A stretch of DNA of 64,000 bases, taken from the NCBI GenBank assembly GCA_025963725.1, contig JAOQAE010000004.1:124001-188000 (forward strand), given 5' to 3'. Every line of letters begins with the position of its first letter. The first letter of the stretch is position 1. Below, piece by piece: positions 8,193 through 45,999 of the stretch. The notes beneath the pieces are model-generated. The model had not been told where the DNA came from, did no database searches, and was given only the letters and a program-made list of their open reading frames with translations. The DNA is from Bacteroidota bacterium. GTDB taxonomy: Bacteria > Bacteroidota > Bacteroidia > 2-12-FULL-35-15. The position numbers and the translations under genes are program-made.

Positions 8193-8759
8193 ATGAAAAA
8201 AGTAAATGTCCTCTTGATCCTTGCCGCATGTTCGGTGCTTGCATACGGATTTATCGCAAAAACAAATACCCCCGCACAGTCTGGTGCCGTTGAGGGAACA
8301 AATGTCGGAAATATTGCTCCGGACCTTAAATTCATGAGCCCGCAGGGAAAAGAGATCGCTCTTTCTTCCTTACGCGGAAAAGTAGTGCTGATCGATTTCT
8401 GGGCTTCCTGGTGCGGCCCCTGCAGAAGGGAAATGCCAACCGTGGTTGCTGCATACAATAAGTTCAAGGATCAGAAATTCAATAAGAAAGCAAAAGGATT
8501 CACCATCTATAGCTTATCGCTCGATAACAATAAGGATGCATGGGTGAACGCCATCGCGAAAGATGGCCTTGTATGGGAAAACCATGTAAGCGACCTTGGC
8601 GGATGGCAGTCGAAAGGCGCCGCACAGTACGGCGTTACGGGCATCCCTGCGGGCTTCTTAATTGACGAGAACGGTGTGATCGTTGCAAAAGGCGATGTGC
8701 TGAGAGGCCCGGGACTTGAGAACGAGCTGAACAAGCTGATCAAGACAGGCGCAAAATAA
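8193..8759 (+). CDS. TlpA-family membrane-anchored thioredoxin
   Basis: A 188-residue periplasm-facing thiol-disulfide oxidoreductase. Residues about 3-20 form a signal or anchor segment ('VNVLLILAACSVLAYGFIA'). The AhpC/TSA-TlpA fold follows with 'WASWCGPCRREMP', giving the redox pair in a WCGPC motif, and the cis-Pro region 'YGVTGIPAGFLID'. Proteins of this group reduce or rearrange disulfides, for instance in cytochrome c maturation; the target here is not shown. It stands alone, with a terminator 69 bases downstream. Confidence 0.9.
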   Translation: MKKVNVLLILAACSVLAYGFIAKTNTPAQSGAVEGTNVGNIAPDLKFMSPQGKEIALSSLRGKVVLIDFWASWCGPCRREMPTVVAAYNKFKDQKFNKKAKGFTIYSLSLDNNKDAWVNAIAKDGLVWENHVSDLGGWQSKGAAQYGVTGIPAGFLIDENGVIVAKGDVLRGPGLENELNKLIKTGAK

Positions 8760-8787
8760 GCAGCGGATACGAAAGGCTAAAACCGTC

Positions 8788-8820
8788 ATTCGTACAATTC
8801 GTAACTATTCGTATTTCGTA
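8788..8820. repeat. ATTCGTA tandem repeat
   Basis: Four imperfect copies of ATTCGTA in the spacer after the TlpA gene. The same unit recurs at 22968-23000. Confidence 0.5.
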
Positions 8821-8827
8821 GGAATAT

Positions 8828-8865
8828 AAAAGACAGGATTCATTTGGGTCCTGTCTTTTGTTTTT
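8828..8865 (+). terminator. Rho-independent terminator after the TlpA gene
   Basis: AAAAGACAGGA and TCCTGTCTTTT form a perfect 11-bp stem with a 10-base loop, followed by GTTTTT. The A/T ends suggest it works in either direction. Confidence 0.85.
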
Positions 8866-8868
8866 CCT

Positions 8869-8876
8869 TAGCTTTG
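8869..8876 (+). promoter_or_regulatory. -7 box (TAGCTTTG) for the OmpA fusion gene
   Basis: TAGCTTTG matches TAnnTTTG and lies directly after the terminator, 21 bases before the ATG at 8898. A TTTG at 8843-8846 is 22 bases upstream, near the expected -33 spacing, though it falls in the terminator loop. Confidence 0.5.
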
Positions 8877-8897
8877 GTTCTTAAATAAGAACAAATC

Positions 8898-10451: not shown

Positions 10452-10454
10452 ATT

Positions 10455-10480
10455 ACCGCAGAGGCGCAAAGACGAAGAGG
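10455..10480. repeat. GCAGAG-type intergenic repeat, degenerate
   Basis: Reads CCGCAGAGGCGCAAAGACGAAGAG, related to the three-unit copy at 3411-3436. Confidence 0.5.
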
Positions 10481-10742
10481 TTTGTCGGGACGGGCACGCA
10501 AAAAAATCAATCGCTAAGCGATACAATCTGCCTTCATTTAATTCATACAGAATCTGTGAATCTGCGGCAGATAAAGCATTACAGCAAATAACAAGATCCC
10601 TCCGCTGCGGTCGGGATGACAACTGCTCCGGCAAAGCCATAGCAGGATCAGATCATAATTAATCATAGGTCGCTCAAGCGATCATCGTTTAAAGCATAAA
10701 AATCTTAAGAGATCTGCGTTCCATTCTACACAGCTTTAGCAA

Positions 10743-10758
10743 CGTAGCACGGAATGAC
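10743..10758. repeat. Single arm of the GTCATTCCGTGCTACG repeat
   Basis: Sixteen bases identical to the reverse complement of the left arm at 53713. A related arm, GATCCCTCCGCTGCGGTCGGGATGAC, lies at 10595-10620. Confidence 0.55.
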
Positions 10759-10833
10759 TGTGTCATTGCGGGAGCCTATGCTTTTTTTAATTGAATTGCG
10801 GCAGCCCGGGCAAATTATGTCAAATTGTCTTAT

Positions 10834-10841
10834 TATCTTTG
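10834..10841 (+). promoter_or_regulatory. -7 box (TATCTTTG) for grpE-dnaJ
   Basis: TATCTTTG matches TAnnTTTG and lies 40 bases before the first possible grpE ATG. No CIRCE (HrcA) element is visible nearby. Confidence 0.45.
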
Positions 10842-10881
10842 TTGGCAGGCATTTTGAATAACCGGATGGTCTGAAAAATGA

Positions 10882-11460
10882 ATGAAAAACATTAAAAAAT
10901 TATTTAAAAAGATGAGCACACAGGAGAACGAAACCGTGAATGAGCAAAACGAGCAGGAACAGGAGCAGCAGCAACAGGAGAGCCCTGTACAGGAGTCCGA
11001 CCCGAGGGATGTTAAATTGAGCGAGATGAAGGCAAAGGTGGATGAGCTGAATGATAAATACCTCCGTTTGTATTCCGAATTTGATAATTTCAGGAAGCGC
11101 ACTGCAAAAGAAAAGCAGGAGCTGATCCAGTCCGGTGGCGAAGATGTTTTTAAAAGCATACTTCCTGTGATCGACGACTTTGAAAGGGCCATTAAATCAA
11201 ACAGCGAAACCTCCGATGTGAAAGCCGTGAACGATGGTGTAAACCTCATTTATAACAAACTGAAATCAACCCTGAACCAGAAGGGCCTTGAAGAGATGAA
11301 AGCGCTGGGTGAGCCTTTCAATGCCGATGTGCACGAGGCGATCACCAGCATTCCTTCACCTTCCGAAGACATGAAAGGCAAAGTGCTGGATGAGCTCGAA
11401 AAAGGATATATGCTGAATGGAAAGATCATCCGCTTCGCAAAAGTGGTGATCGGAAATTAA
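10882..11460 (+). CDS. grpE: Nucleotide exchange factor GrpE
   Basis: A 192-residue protein: an acidic Glu/Gln-rich N-terminal tail (about 10-40), a long coiled coil ('LSEMKAKVDELNDKYLRLYS') running into 'EFDNFRKRTAKEKQEL', then the C-terminal beta domain ending 'ALGEPFNADVHEAI' and 'LNGKIIRFAKVVIGN'. It releases ADP from DnaK and acts with DnaJ, encoded 50 bases downstream. ATG 10912 (MSTQENE) is an equally good start, ten codons in, because the tail is not conserved. dnaK is not in the window. Confidence 0.93.
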   Translation: MKNIKKLFKKMSTQENETVNEQNEQEQEQQQQESPVQESDPRDVKLSEMKAKVDELNDKYLRLYSEFDNFRKRTAKEKQELIQSGGEDVFKSILPVIDDFERAIKSNSETSDVKAVNDGVNLIYNKLKSTLNQKGLEEMKALGEPFNADVHEAITSIPSPSEDMKGKVLDELEKGYMLNGKIIRFAKVVIGN

Positions 11461-32019: not shown

Positions 32020-33438
32020 ATGGAACAGAAAAAGAATTATTCAATGCCCCTCGCATTTCTTACAATGCTGTTTTTTATGTGGGGCTTCATTACCTGCCTG
32101 AACGATATTCTGATCCCGCATTTCAAAGCGATCTTTGTCCTTACTTATTTTGAATCCATGCTCATCCAGTTCGCTTTTTTCAGCGCATACTTCGTGGGCT
32201 CCCTCATTTACTTTATCATCTCCTCCCTTTATGGCGATCCTATTAACAAGATCGGGTATAAGAACGGGATCCTGCTCGGCCTGCTGATCTCCGCGATCGG
32301 TACATTCTTGTTTTACCCTGCGGCATTGATGCAGTCCTTTGCCTTTTTCCTTGCAGCACTGTTCGTGCTTGCGCTCGGATTTACCTTATTACAGATCGCG
32401 GCGAACCCTTATGTGATCCTGCTCGGCCGCCCCGAAACAGGCTCGCACCGTTTGAGCCTCGCCGGCGCCATCAATTCGTTCGGTACTACCATTGCCCCGA
32501 TCATTGGCGGCACGTTGATCCTGTCCACATCGGGGCATGAAACCGACATCGATTCCGTGAAGATGCCTTACCTCGTGCTCACGGGGATTTTCCTCGTGCT
32601 GATCGTTGTATTTAAAATGGTCCCGCTTCCCAATTTCACCAATCACCAGAACATTGAAAAAGGTATGGGCGCATTAAAATATCCGCAGCTTACATGGGGA
32701 ATTCTCGCGATCTTCTTTTATGTTGGCGGTGAAGTAACTGTTGGCAGTTTCATGACAGGGTTTGTCGGATTACCTGAGATCAAGGGGGTTCCACCGGCAG
32801 CGGCAACAATCTATGTAGCGCTGTATTGGGGAAGCCTGATGGTGGGGCGTTTCACAAGCTCTGTATCCGTGTTCAATCTCTCACCAATATTAAAAAAGGT
32901 ATTCACCGCTGTGCTGCCTGTTGTCACTTTCTTCTTCATCCTGCTGATCTTTAAGATCAAATCGGGTGATACGCCTTTCGATTTTCAGTCCATGCTGCTG
33001 TACCTTCCTTTCATCGCGATCAGCATCATTGCCTTTTTTATCGGGCAGGAAAAGCCGGCGCGTACCTTGCTGCTCTTCTCTGTCATCTGTATTTTACTAT
33101 TGATCGTTTCCCTGTTCACTACGGGTGAAGTAGCGCTGTGGTCGGTGATCAGTCTCGGTCTTTACAATTCCATCATGTGGCCTTCTATTTTTGCGCTGGC
33201 TATTGCAGGGCTTGGAAAAAATACAAGCCAGGGCTCGTCGCTGCTGGTGATGGCCATCCTTGGCGGCGCGCTCATTCCTCCTGTGCAGGGCCTGATCGCA
33301 GATTTGTATGGCGTTCACATCTCGTTCGTGATCCCTATCTTTTGCTATGTATACCTGGCCTTTTATGCGTACATCGTAAAAGGGATCTACAGCAGCCAGG
33401 GAATTGAATTCGATAAGGCCATCAGCCCCAATCATTAA
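32020..33438 (+). CDS. FucP-like sugar:H+ symporter (MFS)
   Basis: A 472-residue permease of 12 helices. 'FFMWGFITCLNDILIPHFK' and 'FFSAYFVGSLIYFIIS' are hallmarks of the FucP/GluP/NagP group, with 'LLQIAANPYVILLGRPE' in the middle and 'NSIMWPSIFALAIAGLGKNTSQGSS' near the end. Members import fucose, glucose/galactose or GlcNAc. As first gene of the N-glycan operon, with a ROK kinase 18 bases downstream, it most likely imports a sugar released by the operon hydrolases (GlcNAc or mannose). Confidence 0.9.
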   Translation: MEQKKNYSMPLAFLTMLFFMWGFITCLNDILIPHFKAIFVLTYFESMLIQFAFFSAYFVGSLIYFIISSLYGDPINKIGYKNGILLGLLISAIGTFLFYPAALMQSFAFFLAALFVLALGFTLLQIAANPYVILLGRPETGSHRLSLAGAINSFGTTIAPIIGGTLILSTSGHETDIDSVKMPYLVLTGIFLVLIVVFKMVPLPNFTNHQNIEKGMGALKYPQLTWGILAIFFYVGGEVTVGSFMTGFVGLPEIKGVPPAAATIYVALYWGSLMVGRFTSSVSVFNLSPILKKVFTAVLPVVTFFFILLIFKIKSGDTPFDFQSMLLYLPFIAISIIAFFIGQEKPARTLLLFSVICILLLIVSLFTTGEVALWSVISLGLYNSIMWPSIFALAIAGLGKNTSQGSSLLVMAILGGALIPPVQGLIADLYGVHISFVIPIFCYVYLAFYAYIVKGIYSSQGIEFDKAISPNH

Positions 33439-33456
33439 TCGCTTAACCATTCAGTG

Positions 33457-34404
33457 ATGAAACAATATTTAGTAGCAGGTGTAGACATAGGCGGCACAAA
33501 CACCGTGTTCGGGCTCGTGGATAAGAACGGGAAGATCCTCCTGAAGGAAACCGTTTCAACGGAGCATTTTCCTGTTCCGGAAGATCTGGTGATGGTAGTA
33601 AGCGAGCGGATAAAAAAAGCAGTCTCGCAATTTCCCGATCATGAGCTCGCCGGGGTCGGCATCGGCGCACCCAACGGCAATTGCTTTAAAGGCACTATTG
33701 AGTTCGCTCCCAATCTAAAATGGGAAGGCGTGATCCCGCTTGCGAAATTATTTTCCGAAAGGCTGAAGACAAAGGTGATGCTCACCAACGATGCCAATGC
33801 AGCCGCGATCGGTGAAATGATCTTCGGCGGCGCGAAAGGCATGAAGGATTTTATTTTCATTACGCTGGGAACCGGCCTTGGCAGCGGCATTGTGGCGAAT
33901 GGTGAAATGATCTACGGGCACGACAGCTTTGCAGGCGAGATCGGCCACGTGATCATGTTCCCCGACGGCAGGCAATGCGGCTGCGGAAGAAAGGGTTGCC
34001 TTGAGACCTATTGCTCGGCAACTGGCATCAAAAGGACTTTTTCCGACCTGCAGATGAGCCATCACATGAAGACGGATATGCGCGGGCTTGTTGCCGATGC
34101 AAAGTTCATCCATGAAAAAGCCCTTGCGGGGGATAAAGACGCGATAGAAGCATTTAACTACACCGGCGAGATCCTTGGGCTGGGGCTGGCAAACAGCGTT
34201 GCATACACAAGCCCGCAGGCGATCTTTCTTTTCGGCGGACTCGCGCTTGCCGGCGATTTTATTTTCAAGCCTACAAGGGCAAGCTTCGAAAAGCACCTGC
34301 TGCACATTTACAGGAATAAGATAAAGATCCTTCCTTCCCAGCTGAAAGAGAATGATGCTGCGCTTCTTGGCGCCGCTTCACTGATCTGGAAGGAGCTGAA
34401 ATAA
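33457..34404 (+). CDS. ROK-family sugar kinase
   Basis: A 315-residue kinase of the actin-like fold. Phosphate loop 'VAGVDIGGTNTVFGLVD'; catalytic Asp in 'TNDANAAAIGE'; 'FITLGTGLGSGIV'; the sugar-binding 'GEIGH'; and the ROK zinc site 'QCGCGRKGCLETYCS'. It phosphorylates glucose, mannose or GlcNAc at C6; the operon suggests GlcNAc or mannose. ATG 33457 is preferred to the GTG one codon upstream. Its stop overlaps the start of the next gene by one base (TAATG). Confidence 0.92.
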   Translation: MKQYLVAGVDIGGTNTVFGLVDKNGKILLKETVSTEHFPVPEDLVMVVSERIKKAVSQFPDHELAGVGIGAPNGNCFKGTIEFAPNLKWEGVIPLAKLFSERLKTKVMLTNDANAAAIGEMIFGGAKGMKDFIFITLGTGLGSGIVANGEMIYGHDSFAGEIGHVIMFPDGRQCGCGRKGCLETYCSATGIKRTFSDLQMSHHMKTDMRGLVADAKFIHEKALAGDKDAIEAFNYTGEILGLGLANSVAYTSPQAIFLFGGLALAGDFIFKPTRASFEKHLLHIYRNKIKILPSQLKENDAALLGAASLIWKELK

Positions 34405-35462
34405 TGACGCCGGAAAAGAACAATGAACAGAAATTGCTTGATGTGGTTGTTAAGCTCATCAACGTGATCATTTGCCTGATGCTGCTTGCTGGCGCGCTGG
34501 TGTATGTGAATTTTTGTGGTGTCCCGGAGATCTTCCTTCCTTCAAAAATCGTGGTGGCGGATGCCGCTGCGCCTGCGGAGAAAAAGTCCGCTCCTGCGCA
34601 GGATGTATGGATCGCGCCGGATACCTTATCAATTCCTGCCGGAGCAGAAGGCGAGCTTATCCGTTACGGAAGGTCGCTGATCGTGAACACATCCTATTAT
34701 CTCGGGCCCAAGGGTACAGTGCAGCATAGCAGCAACGGCATGAATTGCCAGAACTGCCACCTCGATGCAGGCACAAAGCCCTTCGGAAATAATTACAGCG
34801 CCGTGGCTTCAACCTATCCTAAATTCCGTGAGCGCTCGGGAAGAACAGAAAGCATTTATAAAAGAGTGAACGATTGTTTTGAGCGCAGCCTCAACGGAAA
34901 AGCGCTGGATAGCATGAGCCGCGAGATGCAGGCGATCACAGCCTATATCGTATGGCTGGGAAAGGACGTAAAGAAAGGTGATAAGCCAAAAGGGGTGGGA
35001 ATTACTGATCTCGCATTCATGGATCATGCTGCCGATCCGGTGAAAGGTAAATCGATATATGCTGCAAAATGCCAATCCTGCCATGCCGCAGGCGGCGAAG
35101 GCAAAATGAACGCTGATCTTTTAACCTACCAGTATCCGCCGCTCTGGGGCGCGCACAGCTACAACACGGGCGCCGGATTGTACCGCCTGTCGAGGTTTGC
35201 CGGATATGTAATGTCGAACATGCCTTTCGGCGCAAGCTATGATGCACCGCAGCTGAGCGCGGAAGAGGCCTGGGATGTGGCGGCGTATGTGAACTCACAG
35301 CAAAGGCCGGCAAAGGATCTTGCCCTGGACTGGCCGAAGATAGAAGGAAAGCCGGTGGATCATCCTTTCGGCCCGTATGTCGATAGCTTTAACGAGCAGC
35401 AGCATAAATACGGGCCTTTCGCGCCGATCGCAGAATTTAAAAAAAAGCATGCAAAAAAATAA
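34404..35462 (+). CDS. TsdA-like dihaem cytochrome c
   Basis: A 352-residue membrane-anchored protein. One helix (about 13-36) then a periplasmic part with two haem sites: CQNCH (115-119) and CQSCH (223-227). The flanks match thiosulfate dehydrogenase/tetrathionate reductase TsdA: 'CHLDAGTKPFGNNYSAVASTYP', 'RVNDCFERSLNGKALD' (Cys158 at the place of the TsdA/SoxA axial Cys ligand), 'YQYPPLWGAHSYNTGAGL', 'SNMPFG' (Met273, likely axial ligand of haem 2) and 'EEAWDVAAYVNSQQRP'. TsdA joins two thiosulfates into tetrathionate or does the reverse. The gene is coupled to the ROK gene before it and lies 7 bases before the SoxB-like gene. Confidence 0.85.
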   Translation: MTPEKNNEQKLLDVVVKLINVIICLMLLAGALVYVNFCGVPEIFLPSKIVVADAAAPAEKKSAPAQDVWIAPDTLSIPAGAEGELIRYGRSLIVNTSYYLGPKGTVQHSSNGMNCQNCHLDAGTKPFGNNYSAVASTYPKFRERSGRTESIYKRVNDCFERSLNGKALDSMSREMQAITAYIVWLGKDVKKGDKPKGVGITDLAFMDHAADPVKGKSIYAAKCQSCHAAGGEGKMNADLLTYQYPPLWGAHSYNTGAGLYRLSRFAGYVMSNMPFGASYDAPQLSAEEAWDVAAYVNSQQRPAKDLALDWPKIEGKPVDHPFGPYVDSFNEQQHKYGPFAPIAEFKKKHAKK

Positions 35463-35469
35463 ATCCGCT

Positions 35470-37215
35470 ATGGAGCAGAAGAAGAACCATGTTAGTGAAT
35501 GCGCCTGCACTTCCTGCATCCCGGTGGATACAAACGGCTTTTCGCGGAAGGATTTTCTGCGTAAGCTCGGCGCCGTAACCGCGGGCCTCGGGCTTGCACC
35601 TGTTACTGCTTATGCGCTCACTGAAAAAGGAAAAGCGGAAGAGATCCTGAAAAGCCGGAGTATAAAAAGCGGGAAGGTGCAGCATTTATCATTGCTGCAC
35701 ACAAGCGATATTCACGGGCAGGTGAATGTGCATGATGAATTTTTCATGGAGAATGATAAGGCCGTCTTTAAAAAGCGCGGAGGCTTTGCGCATCTGAAAA
35801 CGATGATTGAAGGGCTGAGAAAGCAAAATCCGAATACGCTTCTGCTCGATGGCGGCGATTGCTTCCAGGGCAGCGGGCTGGCTTCCTTGTCGGAGGGCCG
35901 CGCCATGATCCCGCTCATGAACAACCTCGGCTACGATCTTGTATTGCCGGGCAACTGGGAGGTTGTATACGGAAAGCAGATGCTGCTCAACGATATGGGC
36001 GCTTACAATGCGCAAAAGATCTGCGCGAACATGTTCAACGATGATGCAGCCGGCGAGATGATGTTCTCGCCATACAGCGTGTTTTACATCGCCGGCATTA
36101 AGATCGGCTTCATCGGCTACAACGACCCGCTCACGCCTGTGCGGCAGGCTCCCGCTTACAACAAAGGAATTCGCTTCAGCGCGCCTGAAAAGAACCTGGC
36201 AAAGTATGTGAAGGTGCTGAAAGAGCAGGAGCAATGTAAAATGGTTTTTGTGATGTCGCACATGGGGCTCACGCAGCAGCTCGACCTTGCTTCACAGCCT
36301 TATGCGGAAGGGGTTGATTACATCCTCGGCGCCGATACGCACGAGCGCATCCGCGAGCCGCTGGCCGGAAAATATGCGAAGGTCACAGAGCCGGGCGCAT
36401 TCGCATCCTTCATCGGTAAGCTCGATCTCGTGATCGAAGACGGGAAGATAAAAGAGGAATCGTACGAGCTGCTCGAAGTGGACCCGGAAAAGTATGCAGC
36501 GGATGAAGAGATGAAAAGCCTCATCGCGACAGCGTATCAGCCGTATGAAAAAGAGCTGAAGCGCGTGATCGGAAAAACAAAAACAACGCTCATGCGGTAT
36601 TATGTGCTGGAAACGCCGATGGATAATATGATCACCGATGCGATCATGTGGAAGTTCAATCCCGACATCAGCATTGCAAATGGCTTCCGTTTTTGTCCGC
36701 CGCTGGTTGCCGACAGCAATAACGTTGCGGAGATCACCTCCGATTATTTATACAGCATGATCCCCGGCAATAATAATTTAATAATGGCCGATGTGAGTGG
36801 AAGGCAAATTATGGAATGGCTCGAGAAGGAGCTGGAAAATGTTTTTTCAAAAGAGCCTGCCAAGCGGATCGGCGGCTGGCTGGTACGTTTCCAGGGAATG
36901 AAAATAAAATTCACGATAAATGCTGAGCCCGGAAAACGCATCGGGGAGATCACCGTAAAAGGAAAAAAGCTGGAGCCGGAAAAGGTGTACAAGGTAGCTT
37001 CCTGCGAAAGGGAGGGCGATCCCGAAAGCCTGCTGTGCAGGATCAGGGACGTGAAGAATACAAAGCGGCTCGGCTATCTTGTTCACGATGTGATGGAAGA
37101 ATACCTTGCAAAGCATTCGCCGGTTAGCCCGGTGCTCGAAGGGCGCGCCGTGGCTACGGATGCGCCGGCCACATTGTTAACACAGGTAAAAGGATCAAAC
37201 TATCAATTCAGGTAA
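35470..37215 (+). CDS. SoxB-like metallophosphoesterase, Tat-exported
   Basis: 581 residues from ATG 35470; earlier in-frame starts lie inside the cytochrome gene. N-terminus: Cys cluster 'SECACTSC', then a Tat-like signal 'FSRKDFLRKLGAVTAGLGL' with Arg-Lys instead of Arg-Arg. Metal-binding motifs of the 5'-nucleotidase/SoxB family: 'LLHTSDIHGQ' (75-84), 'LLDGGDCFQGSG', 'GNWEVVYGKQ' (161-170), 'VFVMSHMGLTQQ', 'ILGADTHERI'. 5'-nucleotidases have GNHEFD at 161; the Trp here follows SoxB (GHWEF). SoxB hydrolyses the sulfate end from thiosulfate bound to SoxY. No soxYZ, soxA or soxX is in the window. A nucleotidase or other sulfonate/phosphate hydrolase is possible. Confidence 0.78.
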   Translation: MEQKKNHVSECACTSCIPVDTNGFSRKDFLRKLGAVTAGLGLAPVTAYALTEKGKAEEILKSRSIKSGKVQHLSLLHTSDIHGQVNVHDEFFMENDKAVFKKRGGFAHLKTMIEGLRKQNPNTLLLDGGDCFQGSGLASLSEGRAMIPLMNNLGYDLVLPGNWEVVYGKQMLLNDMGAYNAQKICANMFNDDAAGEMMFSPYSVFYIAGIKIGFIGYNDPLTPVRQAPAYNKGIRFSAPEKNLAKYVKVLKEQEQCKMVFVMSHMGLTQQLDLASQPYAEGVDYILGADTHERIREPLAGKYAKVTEPGAFASFIGKLDLVIEDGKIKEESYELLEVDPEKYAADEEMKSLIATAYQPYEKELKRVIGKTKTTLMRYYVLETPMDNMITDAIMWKFNPDISIANGFRFCPPLVADSNNVAEITSDYLYSMIPGNNNLIMADVSGRQIMEWLEKELENVFSKEPAKRIGGWLVRFQGMKIKFTINAEPGKRIGEITVKGKKLEPEKVYKVASCEREGDPESLLCRIRDVKNTKRLGYLVHDVMEEYLAKHSPVSPVLEGRAVATDAPATLLTQVKGSNYQFR

Positions 37216-37216
37216 T

Positions 37217-38845
37217 ATGAAGATCAGGATCAGCATTGCATTATTTTTTTTAATCCGCGTTTGCTTTGCGCAGACGGCTGAACAGGCTGCCATCATCCCG
37301 CAGCCGAATTATGTTTCGTTCACGGGAGGCACATTTGCGTTGTCGGATACCACCGTGATCGTTGCCGGTGAAAATGTGTTCGAGGCAAATTACCTGAAAG
37401 AGTATTTAAAGGAGAATTATGGGATCAATGTGATCATCGATTCGCATTATCCGCCGTTCAAAAATTTTATTTCGTTTCTGACTATCCTTTCCAACAACAA
37501 TGCGGAACTGGATCCTGAATATTATGATCTTAAGATAACGAAGAAAGGCATCACCATTAAATCGAATGCCACTGCCGGTTCCTTCTATGCTGTGCAGTCG
37601 CTCATCCAGCTGCTGCCTGTGGAAAAGAGCAGGCGCCTCGTGGTTCCCTGCCTGCAGGTGTTTGATGCGCCGCGTTACAAATGGCGCGGAATGCACCTCG
37701 ATTGCAGCCGGCATTTTTTCTCAACGGCAGAAGTGAAAAAGTACATTGATTATCTCGCCATGTACAAGATGAATACATTCCACTGGCACCTTACCGACGA
37801 CCAGGGATGGAGGGTGGAGATCAAAAAATATCCCCTGCTCACGCAGGTCTCTTCGCAGCGGAAAGCGACCGTGATCGGCAAGCCCGTTGATACCCGGGGC
37901 AAGCCATTGAAGGATGTAAAATATGACAGCACCGCTTACGGCGGATTTTATTCGCAGGACGAGATCCGCGAGGTGGTTGCCTATGCGGCTAAGCTGCACA
38001 TCACCATTGTCCCTGAAATTGAGATGCCGGGGCATGCCCTTGCTGCGCTTGCAGCATACCCGCAGTATTCCTGCACGGGCGGGCCGTTTGAAACTTATAC
38101 CACCTGGGGCGTTTCGGATGATGTGTATTGTGCCGGCAACGACAGCACCTTTGCATTCATTGAAAATATACTTGCGGAAGTGATGGACCTGTTCCCCGGA
38201 CAGTACATTCACATTGGCGGTGACGAATGTCCGAAAGTGCGCTGGGAGAAATGCCCGAAATGCCAGAAGCGGATCAAAGATGAGAAGCTGAAGGATGAGC
38301 ACCAGCTGCAAAGCTATTTTATCACCCGTATCGAAAAGTTCATCAATTCAAAAGGCCGGAAGATCATCGGATGGGATGAGATCCTTGAAGGAGGGCTTGC
38401 GCCGAATGCTTCCGTGATGAGCTGGCGCGGCACCAAAGGAGGAATTGCTGCGGCGAAGCTGGAGCATTATGTGGTAATGAGCCCCGGAAAGCCTTGTTAT
38501 TTCGATCACTACCAGGTGAAGGACCGTACAAATGAACCCATGGCGATCGGTGGCTTCAATCCGGTTGATTCTGTTTATAATTATGACCCTACGCCGGCAG
38601 CGCTCGGGCCCTATGAGCAGAAATATATTTTAGGAGCGCAGGGAAATGTGTGGACAGAATACATTGTTGATTTTAAGCACGTGGAGTATATGTCGATGCC
38701 CCGCATGGCGGCACTATCGGAAACACTTTGGACGAAGCCTGAGAACAAGGATTATAAAAAATTCATCGCGCGGCTGAAGATCCATTCAAAATTACTCGAC
38801 CGCATGAATGTGAATTATGCAAAGCATGTGATCACTCAAAATTAA
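37217..38845 (+). CDS. GH20 beta-N-acetylhexosaminidase
   Basis: A 542-residue exported enzyme: signal peptide ending 'RVCFA' before Q, an N-terminal GH20b domain (about 25-150), then the catalytic barrel beginning 'RYKWRGMHLDCSRHF'. The catalytic Asp-Glu pair is Asp336-Glu337 in 'YIHIGGDECPK', with 'FHWHLTDDQGWRVEIKKYP' and 'GWDEILEGGLAPNASVMSWRG' as further signatures. It removes terminal beta-linked GlcNAc or GalNAc. It starts one base after the SoxB-like stop and 5 bases precede the next gene, so all belong to one operon. Confidence 0.95.
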   Translation: MKIRISIALFFLIRVCFAQTAEQAAIIPQPNYVSFTGGTFALSDTTVIVAGENVFEANYLKEYLKENYGINVIIDSHYPPFKNFISFLTILSNNNAELDPEYYDLKITKKGITIKSNATAGSFYAVQSLIQLLPVEKSRRLVVPCLQVFDAPRYKWRGMHLDCSRHFFSTAEVKKYIDYLAMYKMNTFHWHLTDDQGWRVEIKKYPLLTQVSSQRKATVIGKPVDTRGKPLKDVKYDSTAYGGFYSQDEIREVVAYAAKLHITIVPEIEMPGHALAALAAYPQYSCTGGPFETYTTWGVSDDVYCAGNDSTFAFIENILAEVMDLFPGQYIHIGGDECPKVRWEKCPKCQKRIKDEKLKDEHQLQSYFITRIEKFINSKGRKIIGWDEILEGGLAPNASVMSWRGTKGGIAAAKLEHYVVMSPGKPCYFDHYQVKDRTNEPMAIGGFNPVDSVYNYDPTPAALGPYEQKYILGAQGNVWTEYIVDFKHVEYMSMPRMAALSETLWTKPENKDYKKFIARLKIHSKLLDRMNVNYAKHVITQN

Positions 38846-38850
38846 AGGAC

Positions 38851-39849
38851 ATGAGCGACAGGAGAAATTTTATAAAAACATCGGCAATGGCTGCGGCTGC
38901 CCTGCTTGCGAACCAGGAAGCTTCATCGAAGGAAAATGTAAAAGTGGCGGCCGGTAAAAATGCAGTAAGAAAGCCGGTCGTGATCTCCACCTGGAAATTC
39001 GGGCTCGAAGCCAATGAGGCTGCATGGAAAATATTAAAGGACAAGGGAAGGGCGCTCGATGCAGTGGAGGCGGGCGTAATGGTGCCGGAGGCCGATCCGA
39101 AGGAAAGAAGCGTGGGCTACGGTGGCCGTCCCGACCGCGATGGCAGGGTAACGCTGGATGCCTGCATCATGGACGAATTTTCAAACATCGGATCGGTGGC
39201 AGCGCTTGAATTCATAAAGCACCCGGTTTCAGTGGCGCGCGCTGTGATGGAAAAAACACCGCATGTGATGCTGGTTGGCGAAGGCGCTTTGCAGTTTGCA
39301 TTATCGCAGGGCTTTAAAAAGGAAAACCTGCTGGTGGAGGATTCGGAGAAGGAATGGAAAGAATGGCTGAAAACCAGTAATTATAAACCTGTCGTAAATA
39401 TTGAGAACCATGATACCATCGGCATGATCGCGCTGGATGAGATGGGAAATTTATCGGGCGCCTGCACCACCAGCGGCATGGCGTACAAGATGCACGGCCG
39501 TGTGGGCGATTCGCCGATCATTGGCGCCGGCCTGTACGTAGATAATGAGGTTGGCGCTGCAACGGCAACGGGCCATGGTGAAGAAGTGATCCGCATTGCA
39601 GGCTGCCACCTCGTGGTGGAGCTGATGCGGCAGAACAGATCGCCGCAGGAAGCCTGCATAGAGGCAGTGAACCGCGTGGTGAACTTAATGAAGCTGCGTA
39701 AAAAAGAGCTGAAGGATATCCAGGTGGGGTTTATTGCCCTGGACAAGAATGGCGAACACGGTTCCTACTGCGTGCAGCGGGGCTTCAATTATGCGGTATG
39801 CGATGCAACGGGTAACCGCCTCATCGATGCTGATTACCATTTGAAATAA
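38851..39849 (+). CDS. N4-(beta-N-acetylglucosaminyl)-L-asparaginase
   Basis: A 332-residue Ntn-hydrolase with a Tat-type signal 'DRRNFIKTSAMAAAALLAN'. The precursor should cut itself before Thr189 in 'NIENHDTIGMIALDEMGNLSG', which becomes the catalytic N-terminal nucleophile; 'GRVGDSPIIGAGLYVDNEVGA' and 'TATGHGEE' complete the active site. It cleaves the bond between the first GlcNAc and asparagine, the last step of N-glycan removal once the peptide is gone. Its presence points strongly to N-linked glycopeptides as operon substrate. Confidence 0.93.
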   Translation: MSDRRNFIKTSAMAAAALLANQEASSKENVKVAAGKNAVRKPVVISTWKFGLEANEAAWKILKDKGRALDAVEAGVMVPEADPKERSVGYGGRPDRDGRVTLDACIMDEFSNIGSVAALEFIKHPVSVARAVMEKTPHVMLVGEGALQFALSQGFKKENLLVEDSEKEWKEWLKTSNYKPVVNIENHDTIGMIALDEMGNLSGACTTSGMAYKMHGRVGDSPIIGAGLYVDNEVGAATATGHGEEVIRIAGCHLVVELMRQNRSPQEACIEAVNRVVNLMKLRKKELKDIQVGFIALDKNGEHGSYCVQRGFNYAVCDATGNRLIDADYHLK

Positions 39850-39856
39850 CAATTCA

Positions 39857-40531
39857 ATGAAACGGAATTTCCTTGAAATAGCCTGCTTCAATGCGGAATC
39901 GGCCGCAATCGCACAGTCGGCCGGCGCCGACCGGATCGAGCTGTGCGATGATCTTGCCGCAGGTGGCATCACACCGGGGATCTTAACAATTGAACAGGTA
40001 AGGACTGAAGCTGAAATTCCGCTGTTCATTATGATCCGTCCGCGTGGCGGTGATTTTGTGTACACTGAAAAGGAATTCGAACAGATGAAGCAGGAGATCG
40101 CTTTTATAAAACGAATGGGTGTGGATGGATTTGTGTTCGGCATTCTCAATGAAGATGGAACCGTAGATAAGCAGCGCAACCTGGAGCTTGTGAGATTGGC
40201 AGACCCATTGAGCTGCACCTTTCATCGTGCTTTCGACCGTGTTCCCGATCCTTTTAAAGCGATGGAAGATGTGATCGCCTGCGGCTTTCGCACCATCCTT
40301 ACATCCGGGAAAGCGGCAGCTGCAAGTGAAGGAATGCCGTTATTGTCCTGCCTCGTGCAGGATGCAAAGAACCGGATCACGATAATGCCCGGCGGCGGTG
40401 TGCGTTCTTCCAGCATCGCGGCATTGAAGCAAGCTACAAATGCGCTGTTTTATCATTCCTCCGCGATCACTGACAAGAGCGGCATTGCAGATCAGAAAGA
40501 GATCAAACTCATGAAAGAAAAATTACGTTGA
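39857..40531 (+). CDS. cutC: CutC family protein
   Basis: A 224-residue TIM-barrel protein. 'FLEIACFNAESAAIAQSAGADRIELCDDLAAGGITPG' (read in two parts), 'IMIRPRGGDFVYTEKE', 'GVDGFVFGILNEDGTVD', 'TFHRAFDRVPDP' and 'ILTSGKAAAASEG' match CutC. It is named for copper homeostasis, but its activity is not settled. Here it is embedded in a glycan operon, coupled by a 4-base overlap to the beta-mannosidase gene, so a carbohydrate role deserves thought. Confidence 0.92.
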   Translation: MKRNFLEIACFNAESAAIAQSAGADRIELCDDLAAGGITPGILTIEQVRTEAEIPLFIMIRPRGGDFVYTEKEFEQMKQEIAFIKRMGVDGFVFGILNEDGTVDKQRNLELVRLADPLSCTFHRAFDRVPDPFKAMEDVIACGFRTILTSGKAAAASEGMPLLSCLVQDAKNRITIMPGGGVRSSSIAALKQATNALFYHSSAITDKSGIADQKEIKLMKEKLR

Positions 40532-43065
40532 ACAGGCTATTCCTCATATATGCATTTCTTTTCTTAGCCCCGTTTTTTGCCCTGGCGCAAAAGCAGGAAA
40601 GAAGCCTCGATGGCGGGCACTGGAAGTTCAGGAAAGCGGGGGATGGTGTATGGCATGCGGCAACAGTTCCGGGCACGGTGCATACCGATCTTTTTAAGAA
40701 CAAGCTCATCCCTGATCCCTTTGCCGGTAACAATGAAAAGCAATTGCAGTGGATCGAGAATGAGGACTGGGAATACAAAACAAGCTTTAAGGTTTCTAAA
40801 AAAGAGTTCGCGAAGAAGCACCTTGAGCTGCAATGCGATGGATTGGATACTTACGCCGATGTTTTTCTGAACGATTCGCTTATTCTTTCTGCAAATAATA
40901 TGTTCCGCTCCTGGGATGTGAATATCAGGCCTTTTGTACGCGAAGGAAAAAATGAGCTGCGGATCATTTTTCATTCTGCCGTTAAAAAAGGAAGGTCCGA
41001 AGCGGCGAAGCTTTCCTATACATTGCCCGGCGATGAAAAGGTATTCACGCGAAAGGCTCAATACCAGTATGGCTGGGATTGGGGCCCGCGTTATGTTACC
41101 TGCGGCATCTGGAAAAGCATAAAGCTTGTTTCCTGGGAAGATGCACGGATCCTCAGTGTGCAGTGCATCCAGCATTCCCTGTCGGATTCAATTGCAGAGC
41201 TCGAATTCATCTGCGGGATCGAGAGTGAGATCGATAACTCTGCCTACATCGACATTACGTATTCACACACGCAGGACATTTCCGGGCAGCGTACGCGGAA
41301 GATCAGGCTGCAAAAAGGAGTGGCAAGCTACTCGATCTTTTATACGGTAAAGCAGCCGCAGCGCTGGTGGACCAACGACCTCGGCTTTCCCGTAACCTAC
41401 GGCTTCACGATCGACCTCTCCTACGATTCGCGCTTTCTCGATTCAAAGAGCACCACTGTCGGGCTGCGCACACTGGAGCTGGTGCAGGAAAAAGATTCGC
41501 TCGGAACTTCCTTTTATTTCAGGCTGAATGGCGTTCCGGTTTTTATTAAAGGCGCGAACTATATTCCGCCCGATAATTTTCTTCCGCGTGTGAAAAGCAA
41601 TGCGTATGAAAAAATAGTGCTTGATGCAAAAGAGTCGAACATGAACATGCTGCGCGTATGGGGCGGCGGTGTGTATGGTGAGGATGAATTTTATACCGCC
41701 TGCGATAAAAATGGCATCCTCGTTTGGCAGGACCTCATGTTTGCCTGCGCCATGTATCCCGGCGATAATGATTTTACAAAGAATGTGGCCGAAGAAGTGG
41801 AGCAGCAGGTAAAGCGGCTGAGGAACCATCCGAGCCTTGCGCTGTGGTGCGGAAATAATGAGAGCGATGAAGGCTGGAAGAACTGGGGCTGGCAGAAGCA
41901 GTACGGGTATTCAAATGCTGATTCCGCAAAGATCGCAAGTGATTATGATCTCCTGTTCAATAATCTTTTAAAGGATCTGTTTAAGATCTACGACCCGGAA
42001 CGTCCGTACTGGCCTTCTTCTCCGTCCATCGGCTGGGGGCACCCGGAGAGTTTGCTCGAGGGCGATGCTCATTATTGGGGCGTGTGGTGGGGAATGCAGC
42101 CCTTCGAAGTGTACAAGCAGAAAACCGGCAGGTTCATGTCGGAATACGGCTTCCAGGGGATGCCGGAAATGAGCACCTTCGAAAAGATGGGCCTGAATGC
42201 ATCGTCCGCTGCATTTGATTCGCTCACGTTCAAAGCGCACCAGAAGCATCCTTCAGGCTATGAGACCATCCGCACCTACATGGAGCGCGATTACAAAGTT
42301 CCGGCAAGCCTGGAGAATTATGCCTACGTTTCACAGCTGCTGCAGGCAAGGGGAATGAAGATTGCCATAGAAGCGCACCGCAGGGCGAAGCCTTATTGCA
42401 TGGGAACGATGTACTGGCAGCTGAACGATTGCTGGCCGGTGACCTCCTGGAGCAGCAGCGATTATTACGGCAGCTGGAAAGCGCTGCAATACGAGGTGAA
42501 AAGGGATTATCACGACATCGTGATCTCCGTGAACGAAACAGAAGATTCGTGCGAAGTATATATCATTTCCGACAGGCTGAAAAATGTGAAGGCGGAGCTG
42601 GCGGTAGAGCTGTTTGATTTTGACGGGAACCTGCTTTGGTTCAAGTATCTTCCGGTGGATGTGAATGCCAGTTCAAGCAAGGTGTATTTTAAATTTGATA
42701 AGGGCATTGCCGGCCACTTCAATAAAAGCAGCATCGTGTTGCGTTCATCATTGAGAACAGTGGACAGCTACCTCTCGGATGTGAAAGACATGCATTATTT
42801 TGTGAAGCCGAAGGAGCTTGCGCTGAAAAGGCCGCTGGTGTCCATTTATAAGCCAACCTGTGAAAATGTTCAATGCATCTCCGTAAGCTCGGATGTGCTG
42901 ATGAAAGACGTGTACATCCGCATCAAAGGCGAATCAGTTCAGCTGAGCGATAACTTTTTTGACCTTCTCCCCGGGGAGGAAAGAACCATCTATCTGCCAA
43001 AGGACGTACACATCCGGAAGCTCGGGAAAAAAATCATTATAAAATCATTAGTCGATACCTATTAA
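40528..43065 (+). CDS. GH2 beta-mannosidase
   Basis: An 845-residue exported enzyme with signal peptide 'LIYAFLFLAPFFALA' before Q. Order: sugar-binding jelly roll (about 25-210, 'WEYKTSFKVSKKEFAKKHLEL'), Ig-like domain, TIM barrel with acid/base Glu445 in 'LWCGNNESDEGW' and nucleophile Glu539 in 'RFMSEYGFQGMPE', then C-terminal Ig-like domains. 'YQYGWDWGPRYVTCGIWK' is typical of beta-mannosidases of this family. It removes the single beta-mannose of the N-glycan core. It begins with TTG in TTGA, overlapping the CutC stop; no in-frame ATG lies before the signal peptide. Confidence 0.93.
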   Translation: MNRLFLIYAFLFLAPFFALAQKQERSLDGGHWKFRKAGDGVWHAATVPGTVHTDLFKNKLIPDPFAGNNEKQLQWIENEDWEYKTSFKVSKKEFAKKHLELQCDGLDTYADVFLNDSLILSANNMFRSWDVNIRPFVREGKNELRIIFHSAVKKGRSEAAKLSYTLPGDEKVFTRKAQYQYGWDWGPRYVTCGIWKSIKLVSWEDARILSVQCIQHSLSDSIAELEFICGIESEIDNSAYIDITYSHTQDISGQRTRKIRLQKGVASYSIFYTVKQPQRWWTNDLGFPVTYGFTIDLSYDSRFLDSKSTTVGLRTLELVQEKDSLGTSFYFRLNGVPVFIKGANYIPPDNFLPRVKSNAYEKIVLDAKESNMNMLRVWGGGVYGEDEFYTACDKNGILVWQDLMFACAMYPGDNDFTKNVAEEVEQQVKRLRNHPSLALWCGNNESDEGWKNWGWQKQYGYSNADSAKIASDYDLLFNNLLKDLFKIYDPERPYWPSSPSIGWGHPESLLEGDAHYWGVWWGMQPFEVYKQKTGRFMSEYGFQGMPEMSTFEKMGLNASSAAFDSLTFKAHQKHPSGYETIRTYMERDYKVPASLENYAYVSQLLQARGMKIAIEAHRRAKPYCMGTMYWQLNDCWPVTSWSSSDYYGSWKALQYEVKRDYHDIVISVNETEDSCEVYIISDRLKNVKAELAVELFDFDGNLLWFKYLPVDVNASSSKVYFKFDKGIAGHFNKSSIVLRSSLRTVDSYLSDVKDMHYFVKPKELALKRPLVSIYKPTCENVQCISVSSDVLMKDVYIRIKGESVQLSDNFFDLLPGEERTIYLPKDVHIRKLGKKIIIKSLVDTY

Positions 43066-45999
43066 ATGAAGCGCATTTTATTTTTTACGTTAAGCATGCT
43101 GCTTGCCTGTACTGCAGCTGCGCAGCAAACAAGTTTTGTTCAGTATGTGGATCCTATGATCGGCACGGGCGGGCACGGACATACCTTTCCCGGCGCAACC
43201 GTTCCATTCGGGATGGTGCAGCTCTCGCCCGATACGCGCATCGATGGCAGCTGGGATGGCTGCAGCGGCTATCATTACAGCGATTCGGTGATCTATGGCT
43301 TTTCGCATACGCACCTGAGCGGCACCGGCTGCAGCGATTACGGCGATATTGTGCTCATGCCCTTTACAGGCAGCGCAACACTTGACCTTAGTAAATTCCA
43401 ATCAAAATTTTCTCACAAAAGCGAAAAGGCCGCGGCAGGCTTTTATTCCGTTAAATTATCGAACGGCGTGGAAGTAGAGCTGACAAGCACTACGCGCGTC
43501 GGCTTTCACCGTTATACGTTTCCTGAAAAATCGCAGGGCAATGTAGTGATCGATCTTTCCCTGCGCGATAAAACGCTGGAATCGTCGCTCGACAGCATCA
43601 GTCCGACCCGCCTTGAAGGCATGCGCAGAAGCCAGGCCTGGGCTACCGACCAGCATATTTATTTCGTCATCGAATTCTCCGCGCCTTTCCGCATTAAGAT
43701 GGCTGATAATGAGATCGGGCTGTGGCAGGGTGAAGACGGACTGGAAAGAGTTCCCAACGGCGACAAGATGTGCCTGCAGTTCAATACAAAGCTGAACAGG
43801 ACCGTGATGGTCAAGGTTGGGATCTCAACAGTGAGCATTGAAGGTGCGCGGAAAAACCTCGAAGCCGAGCTGAAAGGATGGGATTTTGAAAAAACAAAAC
43901 AGGAAGCGGCAGCGCTCTGGAACAAGGAGCTGGGGAAGATCGAAGTGACGGACGCTGATAAGGAAAAGCTGAAAATCTTTTATACCGCGCTGTATCATAC
44001 GATGATCCAGCCGAATGTGAACATGGATGTGGATGGCATGTACCGCGGCCGCGACAACAAGATCCACAAGGCGGATGGCTTTACCTATTACTCCGTATTC
44101 TCGCTGTGGGATACGTTCCGCGCTGCGCATCCTTTGTACACGATCATTGATCAAAAGCGCAGCTCCGATTTCATCAATACCTTTCTTGCACAGTACGAGC
44201 AGGGCGGAAGGCTTCCTGTGTGGGAGCTGGCAAGCAATGAAACCGACTGCATGATCGGCTATCATTCGGTGAGCGTGATCGCCGATGCCATGGTGAAAGG
44301 GATCAAAGGCTTCGATTATGAAAAGGCGTTTGAAGCAAGCCGGCACAGCGCCATGCTTGATCATTTCGGGTTAAGCGCATATAAGATGAATGGCTTTATC
44401 AGCATGGACGATGAGCATGAAAGCGTTTCGAAGACACTGGAATATGCGTATGACGACTGGTGCATTTCGCAGATGGCGAAGCTTCTTAATAAGGAAAATG
44501 AATATGCATATTTTACGGAGCGCTCCCAGAGCTGGAAGAATGTGTTCGACCCTCAAACCGGCTTCATGCGCCCGAAGAAGAACGGCGGCTGGCTCAGTCC
44601 CTTTGATCCGCGCGAGGTCAATAATAATTTTACGGAAGGCAATTCATGGCAGTATACATTTTTTGTCCCGCAGGATCTCCCCGGATTGATCGCAATGATG
44701 GGAGGAAAGGAAAAGTTTGAAAAGAAGCTGGATGAATTATTTACGGCCCCGGCACAAACTACCGGACGTGAACAAGCCGATATTACAGGCCTCATCGGGC
44801 AGTATGCGCATGGTAATGAGCCAAGCCATCACATGGCCTATCTCTACAATTATGTGAATGCTCCGGCAAAAACAGAATTCAGGCTGCACCAGGTAATGAA
44901 GGATTTTTACAAGCCTGCGCCGGATGGTCTCATCGGGAATGAAGACTGTGGGCAGATGAGCGCATGGTATGTGCTGAATGCCCTGGGAATTTACGAGGTA
45001 ACGCCGGGAACCGACAAGTACCTGCTGGGAACGCCCTTGTTTAAAAGCGCAAAAGTGCATCTCGAAAATGGAAAAATATTTTCAGTGAATGCAGAGAACC
45101 TGTCAGAAGCAAATTTTTATGTGCAGTCGAGAAAAATGCATGACCAGCTTTTGAAGGAGAATTATATTTCCTATGCATCCATCATGAACGGGGAGAATAT
45201 AAGCTTCGCAATGGGTGGAAAGCCTGGAAGCCTCGATGCTCCGGGTTGGGCCGCTGCATTGAACGAGCCGCCTGCCTTTAAGATCTGCCCGGTGCCTTCC
45301 ATCAATTCTTCTGCACGTGTGTTCGACGACAGCCTGCTTGTTAAAATAGAGGCGCCTGACCCGGCAGGCAAGATCTATTATTCGGTAAGAGAGCTGCCCG
45401 GCGATAAAGGAACATACGAATTTTATCCGGGGCCTTTTGCTGTGAAGCGCACCTCCAAAGTGTTTACCTTCAGTGATAACGGCAGCTCAAAAAGCGATAC
45501 CGTTTCAGGCACCTTCTATAAGCGTCCGAACCATTGGAAAATAAAGATCAATTCGAAATACAATGCGCAGTACACGGCAGGTGGCGATGAAGGGATCATC
45601 GATGGCTTGCATGGAACGGAGAACTGGAGAAAGGGCGACTGGCAGGGTTACCAGGGCCAAAATTTTGAAGCGGTGGTCGACCTGCTGAAAGAGCAGAAGG
45701 TCAGCTCCGTTTCTTCAACGTATTTACAGGACACACGCTCCTGGATCATTTTCCCCGTTAAGGTTATATACTCCTTTTCGACTGATGGCATTCACTTCAG
45801 CAATGCAATAGAGGTGGAGAATCCCGTGGATGTGCAGAATTACACGGTGCAGGTAAAAGACTTCTCCATGCTTTTGCCGCAGAAAATTTCAGCGCGGTAC
45901 GTAAAGGTGGAAGCGGTAAATTACGGTAAGCTCCCCGCATGGCACCAGGGCGTGGGAGGCGATGCCTTTATCTTTATTGACGAGATCGGAATAAAATAA
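43066..45999 (+). CDS. GH92 alpha-mannosidase with C-terminal add-on domains
   Basis: A 977-residue exported enzyme with signal peptide 'ILFFTLSMLLACTAAA' before Q. The GH92 unit (about 25-745) has 'YVDPMIGTGGHGHTFPGA', 'YGFSHTHLSGTGCSDYGD', 'YYSVFSLWDTFRAAHPL', 'PVWELASNETDCMIGYHS', 'YAHGNEPSHHMAYLYNY' (general acid Glu region) and 'IGNEDCGQMSAWYVLNALG'. It removes alpha-linked mannose with inversion, using calcium. After it come an Ig-like domain (about 750-830) and a discoidin-like beta-sandwich (about 850-977), so it is about 200 residues longer than plain GH92. It starts directly at the base after the GH2 stop. Confidence 0.93.
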   Translation: MKRILFFTLSMLLACTAAAQQTSFVQYVDPMIGTGGHGHTFPGATVPFGMVQLSPDTRIDGSWDGCSGYHYSDSVIYGFSHTHLSGTGCSDYGDIVLMPFTGSATLDLSKFQSKFSHKSEKAAAGFYSVKLSNGVEVELTSTTRVGFHRYTFPEKSQGNVVIDLSLRDKTLESSLDSISPTRLEGMRRSQAWATDQHIYFVIEFSAPFRIKMADNEIGLWQGEDGLERVPNGDKMCLQFNTKLNRTVMVKVGISTVSIEGARKNLEAELKGWDFEKTKQEAAALWNKELGKIEVTDADKEKLKIFYTALYHTMIQPNVNMDVDGMYRGRDNKIHKADGFTYYSVFSLWDTFRAAHPLYTIIDQKRSSDFINTFLAQYEQGGRLPVWELASNETDCMIGYHSVSVIADAMVKGIKGFDYEKAFEASRHSAMLDHFGLSAYKMNGFISMDDEHESVSKTLEYAYDDWCISQMAKLLNKENEYAYFTERSQSWKNVFDPQTGFMRPKKNGGWLSPFDPREVNNNFTEGNSWQYTFFVPQDLPGLIAMMGGKEKFEKKLDELFTAPAQTTGREQADITGLIGQYAHGNEPSHHMAYLYNYVNAPAKTEFRLHQVMKDFYKPAPDGLIGNEDCGQMSAWYVLNALGIYEVTPGTDKYLLGTPLFKSAKVHLENGKIFSVNAENLSEANFYVQSRKMHDQLLKENYISYASIMNGENISFAMGGKPGSLDAPGWAAALNEPPAFKICPVPSINSSARVFDDSLLVKIEAPDPAGKIYYSVRELPGDKGTYEFYPGPFAVKRTSKVFTFSDNGSSKSDTVSGTFYKRPNHWKIKINSKYNAQYTAGGDEGIIDGLHGTENWRKGDWQGYQGQNFEAVVDLLKEQKVSSVSSTYLQDTRSWIIFPVKVIYSFSTDGIHFSNAIEVENPVDVQNYTVQVKDFSMLLPQKISARYVKVEAVNYGKLPAWHQGVGGDAFIFIDEIGIK

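Follow-up and report, generated by a model that had tools for sequence, protein, structure and literature searches.

A TsdA-type cytochrome and a SoxB-like hydrolase as a probable thiosulfate-oxidation module within a Bacteroidota N-glycan operon

Deletion and stoichiometry analyses of Erythrobacter flavus 21-3 (Zhang et al., 2020) describe a thiosulfate-oxidation pathway in which TsdA makes tetrathionate, SoxB acts on tetrathionate to give sulfate and zero-valent sulfur without SoxYZ, and SdoA/B oxidize the zero-valent sulfur; Bacteroidetes are listed among holders of both tsdA and soxB (PMC7608252). Here we analyze a 64,000-nt stretch of contig JAOQAE010000004.1 from a Bacteroidota bacterium (GCA_025963725.1), hereafter the window, in which a cytochrome c gene and a hydrolase gene lie between a ROK kinase gene and a GH20 gene. 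We estimate a probability of roughly 70% that these two genes form the core of a thiosulfate-oxidation module of Bacteroidota, taken into an N-glycan operon at this position. By analogy with E. flavus, the two proteins most likely oxidize thiosulfate via tetrathionate to sulfate and sulfane sulfur without SoxYZ. New elements are a distinct hydrolase subfamily, a conserved cassette with half-size YeeE genes resembling PmpA/PmpB, and the slot in the glycan operon; no account of such an arrangement was found in the literature, as covered by open-licence papers.

The pair and its diagnostic sites are as follows.

34404..35462, + strand: TsdA-type dihaem cytochrome c, 352 amino acids, predicted (phmmer, Foldseek, PF21342)
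34746..34760, + strand: haem 1 motif CQNCH, residues 115-119 (Cys and His invariant in 37 homologues)
34875..34877, + strand: Cys158, putative axial ligand of haem 1 (37/37 homologues; role from PMC4423706, PMC5146829)
35070..35084, + strand: haem 2 motif CQSCH, residues 223-227 (Cys and His invariant in the homologue alignment)
35217..35222, + strand: Asn272-Met273, haem 2 ligand region (37/37 homologues; PMC5146829)
35470..37215, + strand: SoxB-like dimetal hydrolase with a Tat (twin-arginine translocation) signal, 581 amino acids, predicted (TIGR04486 profile, AlphaFold and Foldseek)
35950..35961, + strand: GNWE motif of the hydrolase (N and W in 80/80 and 47/47 homologues)
36334..36342, + strand: Asp-Thr-His of the hydrolase (80/80 and 46/47 homologues)

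The cytochrome is assigned to TsdA by every residue tested and by both sequence and fold. It matches Allochromatium vinosum TsdA with a phmmer E-value of 6.4e-43 and scores above the cut-off of PF21342 (SoxA-TsdA_cyt-c). The first nine Foldseek matches of its AlphaFold model (predicted local distance difference test score, pLDDT, 88) are all TsdA or TsdBA, 4wq7 and 4v2k being among the TsdA-fold matches, with a template modelling (TM) score, normalized to the target, of 0.89-0.91 to the A. vinosum enzyme. An N-terminal membrane anchor (residues ~17-37) precedes two haem domains, which carry two CxxCH sites and a Cys at the position of the haem 1 axial ligand. Thiosulfate binding in A. vinosum TsdA involves Arg109, Arg119, Ser127, the main chain of Gly221, and Arg224, and Ser127 is found in TsdA only, being absent from SoxA (PMC4423706); the axial ligand of haem 1 is Cys123 in this enzyme and Cys138 in Campylobacter jejuni TsdA (PMC4423706, PMC5146829). 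Arg109, Arg119, Ser127, Gly221, Arg224, and Cys123 (precursor numbering) correspond to Arg144, Arg154, Ser162, Gly258, Arg261, and Cys158 of the window cytochrome, each invariant in 37 homologues. At haem 2, Met273 of the NMPFG motif (residues 272-276) aligns with A. vinosum Met209 (mature numbering), whereas the preceding Asn272 replaces Lys208 of that enzyme (Lys-Met) and matches Asn254-Met255 of C. jejuni TsdA (PMC5146829).

The hydrolase is SoxB-like and, as judged from profiles and residues, forms a separate Bacteroidota subfamily outside canonical SoxB. Its best profile is SoxB TIGR04486 (295 bits versus a cut-off of 550, a threshold passed in 0/7 genomes), the next family reaching 156 bits. 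The best PDB sequence match is SoxB 2wdc (1e-31), which is also the top Foldseek hit of the AlphaFold model (pLDDT 86; E 2.8e-39, TM(target) 0.82), with 5'-nucleotidases ranking close behind. Residue comparison separates four groups of SoxB/nucleotidase-fold proteins: canonical SoxB (xHWE...GHTHD...GxRWG), a Bradyrhizobium/Bosea/Hymenobacter type (AHWE(D)...HTH...GWRYG), nucleotidases (GNHE...GHxH), and the window subfamily (PGNWE...GADTHER...GFRFC). The SoxB active-site Trp (Trp175 of Thermus thermophilus) is kept in the motif GNWEVVYG. Asn, Trp, and Asp-Thr-His are kept in all 80 named-genome sequences, the window included, and Asn, Trp, and Asp in 47, 47, and 46 of 47 class-sample homologues. 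Five additional conserved Cys (C185, C256, C409, C512, and C523) are missing from most or all of the canonical SoxB sequences compared; C409, two residues past the Arg of GFRFC, occurs in 78/80 homologues, and C131 was left out of the count because the search pattern favoured it. The Tat motif (R26, R/K27, F29) is conserved among homologues. In a tree built with a quick method, a long branch separates the Bacteroidota clade that holds the hydrolase from canonical SoxB. Membership in canonical SoxB is ruled out by profile score and by the Asn and Asp-Thr-His residues, and a plain 5'-nucleotidase of the UshA type by the Trp in place of the catalytic His (GNWE in all homologues), profile scores, and fold rank.

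The open-reading-frame list places the hydrolase start at 35377, inside the cytochrome gene. Homologue alignment argues for ATG 35470 as the most likely start, from which the protein has 581 amino acids and the gene is separated by 7 bases from the cytochrome stop; translation could alternatively begin at ATG 35449. Ahead of the Tat motif the N-terminal region is rich in Cys (CACTSC, window 35500-35520), a motif present in 10/47 class-sample homologues, and this region is expected to be cleaved off.

The pairing of TsdA with the hydrolase is real and conserved beyond chance neighbourhood. We surveyed 396 evenly drawn genomes of the class, with genes called as longest open reading frames and named by BLAST. 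The hydrolase occurs in 58/396 genomes; TsdA accompanies it in 55 of these 58 and is found in 45 of the 338 genomes without it (Fisher p 1e-35 from the raw table, a value that is too small because the genomes are phylogenetically dependent). Within 5 kb, 47 TsdA-hydrolase pairs were counted, 46 of them on the same strand. Among the 80 nearest hydrolase loci, examined with fetched 10-kb flanks, TsdA is present at 63, YeeE at 39, a persulfide dioxygenase family member at 35, TauE at 35, rhodanese at 29, porin at 27, and DsrE at 20. YeeE/DUF6691, persulfide dioxygenase, TauE, porin, rhodanese, and DsrE are likewise the usual companions in the 58 class-sample neighbourhoods, six of which hold glycan genes (five from the window's genus, one from another family code); outside glycan operons the pair lies mostly in sulfur islands of these genes. 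Annotated plasmids carry copies of this island: that of Runella rosea combines TauE, two metallo-beta-lactamase-fold hydrolases, a c-type cytochrome, DsrE, the hydrolase, an OprD porin, YeeE, and DUF6691, and a Hymenobacter plasmid carries a cognate set with the other hydrolase type. The pair most likely belongs to a thiosulfate-oxidation kit that occurs across Bacteroidota. Protein distances of TsdA and hydrolase correlate weakly (Mantel r 0.29, 0/2000 permutations as high), and long joint inheritance is therefore not established.

Two further relatives were observed. The mobilizable plasmid Paks1 of Pontibacter akesuensis encodes three SoxB/nucleotidase-fold hydrolases of different motif classes within 7 kb, one beside TsdA. 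An Acidobacteria-labelled contig from a metagenome-assembled genome (QHWJ01000025.1, 9 kb) carries a 58% identical hydrolase, with no TsdA on the contig, and reflects either transfer or mis-binning.

The window genome encodes TsdA, the hydrolase (SoxB-like only), and a sulfur dioxygenase without SoxYZ. The absence of soxYZ near the pair, pointed out in the initial annotation, extends to the whole genome: PF13501 and PF08770 gave 0 matches, while a Ruegeria control record was positive for both. No YeeE family member was found in the window genome, with positive controls. A persulfide dioxygenase-rhodanese gene (G000:C6:631026-632375) clusters with TauE and two rhodanese genes at ~630.3-633.2 kb of the same contig, away from the pair; this cluster recurs, whole or in part, in three other genomes (G018, G003, and G010). 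The cluster (8278-11250 in G000:C6:622000-641900) lies near genes resembling succinate dehydrogenase, an arrangement shared by G018, G003, and G010.

The operon that hosts the pair spans 32020-45999, with neighbouring genes separated or overlapping by no more than 15 bases, in the order MFS transporter, ROK kinase, cytochrome, hydrolase, GH20, glycosylasparaginase, CutC, GH2 beta-mannosidase, GH92 alpha-mannosidase. Besides the pair it contains the following genes.

32020..33438, + strand: major facilitator superfamily (MFS) sugar transporter, operon gene 1 (TIGR01272, 269 bits, above cut-off)
33454..34404, + strand: ROK sugar kinase, upstream border of the slot (PF00480)
37217..38845, + strand: GH20 hexosaminidase, downstream border of the slot (PF00728)
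38851..39849, + strand: glycosylasparaginase (phmmer 7.4e-151 to N4-(beta-N-acetylglucosaminyl)-L-asparaginase 3ljq)
39857..40531, + strand: CutC-family protein (PF03932)
40528..43065, + strand: GH2 beta-mannosidase (phmmer 3.5e-212 to 2vjx)
43066..45999, + strand: GH92 alpha-mannosidase, last operon gene (PF07971, 605 bits; phmmer 1.6e-179)

Assignment of this operon to N-glycan catabolism is firm, because the glycosylasparaginase, beta-mannosidase, and GH92 matches are strong. The initial annotation had noted the odd placement of two coupled sulfur-type genes inside such an operon, and its details were borne out: base 34404 is both the last of the ROK kinase stop and the first of the cytochrome ATG (a 1-base overlap), one base separates the end of the hydrolase stop at 37215 from the GH20 start at 37217, the motifs CQNCH, CQSCH, Cys158, NMPFG, and GNWEVVYG with its SoxB-like Trp are present, the cytochrome is TsdA-like by sequence, fold, and residues, profile scores (295 versus ≤156 bits) and fold rank put the hydrolase closer to SoxB than to 5'-nucleotidases, and the two genes stay together in relatives. 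Two further proposals fared less well. Release of sulfur from sulfated glycans is unsupported, given the surroundings of the relatives, most of which have no glycan genes nearby and many of which lie in inorganic-sulfur islands, and, as a weak argument, the lack of a sulfatase gene in the operon (PF00884 has five matches in the window genome, two of them ~630-residue proteins resembling LtaS-type membrane proteins in length and N-terminus). A new two-part enzyme is unnecessary because a SoxYZ-free pathway from TsdA via SoxB to sulfur dioxygenase was published in 2020, though with a typical-like SoxB (PMC7608252).

The sulfur genes are a cassette within a glycan operon that also exists without them, because the ROK-GH20 slot is empty, partial, or full among operons of the same genus. 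ROK and GH20 are directly adjacent or separated by a short gap in six genomes (G004, G005, G007, G013, G014, and G023); TsdA-hydrolase fills the slot in the window genome, G018, and G197, and TsdA-YeeE1-YeeE2-hydrolase in G010, G003, G016, and G372. In G006 the slot (on contig C13) holds YeeE1-YeeE2 alone, a YeeE/DUF6691 pair without TsdA or hydrolase, which suggests that the transporter half of the cassette can persist by itself. In G043 (contig C11) TsdA-YeeE1 occupies the slot and the hydrolase lies past GH92 on the opposite strand. A host-operon tree (ROK, GH20, and glycosylasparaginase; quick method) implies at least three changes of hydrolase presence, with gain and loss indistinguishable. 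The ratio of nonsynonymous to synonymous substitution rates (dN/dS) between the window and G018 is 0.10 for TsdA and 0.06 for the hydrolase, values like those of the glycan genes and a sign of purifying selection on the cassette. Adjoining the slot, the MFS transporter (32020-33438) is 97% identical to that of G018 and ~37-44% identical to transporters at the same place in other operons of the genus, which points to a non-orthologous swap.

In the proposed pathway, membrane-anchored TsdA would join two thiosulfates to tetrathionate via a Cys158 S-thiosulfonate and pass the electrons through periplasmic cytochrome c to the respiratory chain. The Tat-exported hydrolase would then cleave the terminal sulfonate to give sulfate and sulfane sulfur without a SoxYZ carrier, and persulfide dioxygenase/rhodanese proteins, whose genes lie at another site of the genome, would convert the sulfane sulfur to sulfite, which TauE may export. 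Gene order, active sites, co-occurrence, slot polymorphism, purifying selection, and the lack of SoxYZ and YeeE genes are observed; which way TsdA runs, what the hydrolase acts on, and how sulfur reaches the dioxygenase are inferred. A more specific and tentative idea, which we think is rather less probable than its opposite, is that the hydrolase is a carrier-free thiosulfohydrolase whose Asn/Trp/Asp-Thr-His metal site and conserved Cys, C409 among them, allow direct cleavage of tetrathionate or of the TsdA-Cys thiosulfonate. If so, in Bacteroidota two proteins, hydrolase and TsdA, would minimally replace the Sox multienzyme system, and in one genus their expression would be joined to the catabolism of glycoprotein sugars. 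The simplest guess about the glycan context is that joint expression supplies extra electrons during growth on glycoproteins.

Several observations weigh against a thiosulfate-oxidation module. A TsdA homologue occurs without the window-type hydrolase in 45 sampled genomes, and the phylogenetic dependence of the genomes lowers the weight of the Fisher value. The hydrolase and SoxB have different residues at two positions that correspond to metal ligands, roles assigned from alignment with SoxB and nucleotidase sequences and from general superfamily knowledge, and the identity of the hydrolase to known structures is ~20%; its substrate is therefore not fixed by homology. The window lineage lacks the YeeE transporter pair, and the E. 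flavus precedent concerns a different hydrolase lineage because the SoxB of that organism is said to resemble typical SoxBs closely. Haem 2 is like that of C. jejuni TsdA, which favours the reduction of tetrathionate. This leads to a reading in which TsdA is a tetrathionate reductase serving as electron sink, while sulfur oxyanions that arise in the process are removed or recycled by the hydrolase. The Asn272-Met273 pair, present in 37/37 homologues, matches that of C. jejuni TsdA, which respires tetrathionate (PMC5146829), and TsdA is reversible in vitro (PMC4423706). However, the residue alone does not set direction, as N254K failed to convert C. jejuni TsdA (PMC5146829), the islands carry persulfide dioxygenase, which uses oxygen, and the electron acceptor would also be consumed by a hydrolase that cleaves sulfonates; we regard a reductive role as improbable.

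Still more doubtful, to the point of being hard to credit, is that the hydrolase acts as a phosphatase or sulfatase on glycan parts such as phosphomannose with the cytochrome as a hitch-hiker. It is a 5'-nucleotidase/metallophosphatase superfamily member with a nucleotidase-type Asn, located in a mannose-rich glycan operon; yet every homologue has Trp in place of the catalytic His of nucleotidases, most relatives have TsdA and often other sulfur genes nearby but no glycan genes, and operons of the same genus without the hydrolase keep the same glycan genes. The unchanged glycan genes around an occupied or empty slot equally suit the idea that the pair is a mere passenger of the operon with no physiological tie to glycan use, as does its occurrence, in the same genus, by itself (G239) or in a sulfur island (G002). 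The tight junctions (overlap, 7 bases, 1 base), selection as strong as on the glycan genes, and the recurrence of glycan linkage in two family groups (f1 and f39), with several gene orders and at ~60% identity between hydrolases, speak against this idea, to which we give a little under even odds. It is compatible with a thiosulfate-oxidation module because it concerns the context and not the reaction.

The pair is usually annotated only as 'c-type cytochrome' and 'bifunctional metallophosphatase/5'-nucleotidase'. Sox surveys would overlook the module, since the genomes tested yielded no SoxYZ and the score of the hydrolase lies below the SoxB cut-off; with the hydrolase in 58 of 396 sampled class genomes, many Bacteroidota carry it. 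Should the proposed function be correct, present counts would underestimate thiosulfate oxidation by heterotrophic Bacteroidota, and one genus would link it to the breakdown of glycoproteins. How SoxB chemistry can proceed without a carrier also becomes directly testable with this hydrolase.

Comparison with described systems places the locus as follows. The two half-size YeeE genes of the relatives resemble the PmpA/PmpB pair of the SoxT/PmpAB YeeE-family sulfur importers (PMC11582611), whereas the window genome lacks YeeE genes. The window cytochrome shares both haem domains and the fold with the TsdA enzymes of A. vinosum and C. jejuni but adds the N-terminal membrane anchor and, past the region that matches TsdA, a C-terminal extension (residues ~304-352). 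With T. thermophilus SoxB (TIGR04486) the hydrolase shares the two-domain fold, the D, H, D, H set, the Trp, and the Arg of GxR; it differs in a nucleotidase-type Asn for the SoxB His before the Trp, Asp-Thr-His where SoxB has His-Thr-His, the five extra Cys, a genome without SoxYZ, and a score far short of the profile cut-off. As in E. flavus 21-3, TsdA, a SoxB-type hydrolase, and a sulfur dioxygenase occur in one organism without SoxYZ. Unlike the E. flavus enzyme, the window hydrolase represents a separate subfamily, its relatives have a YeeE/DUF6691 partner, and the window pair itself sits in an N-glycan operon.

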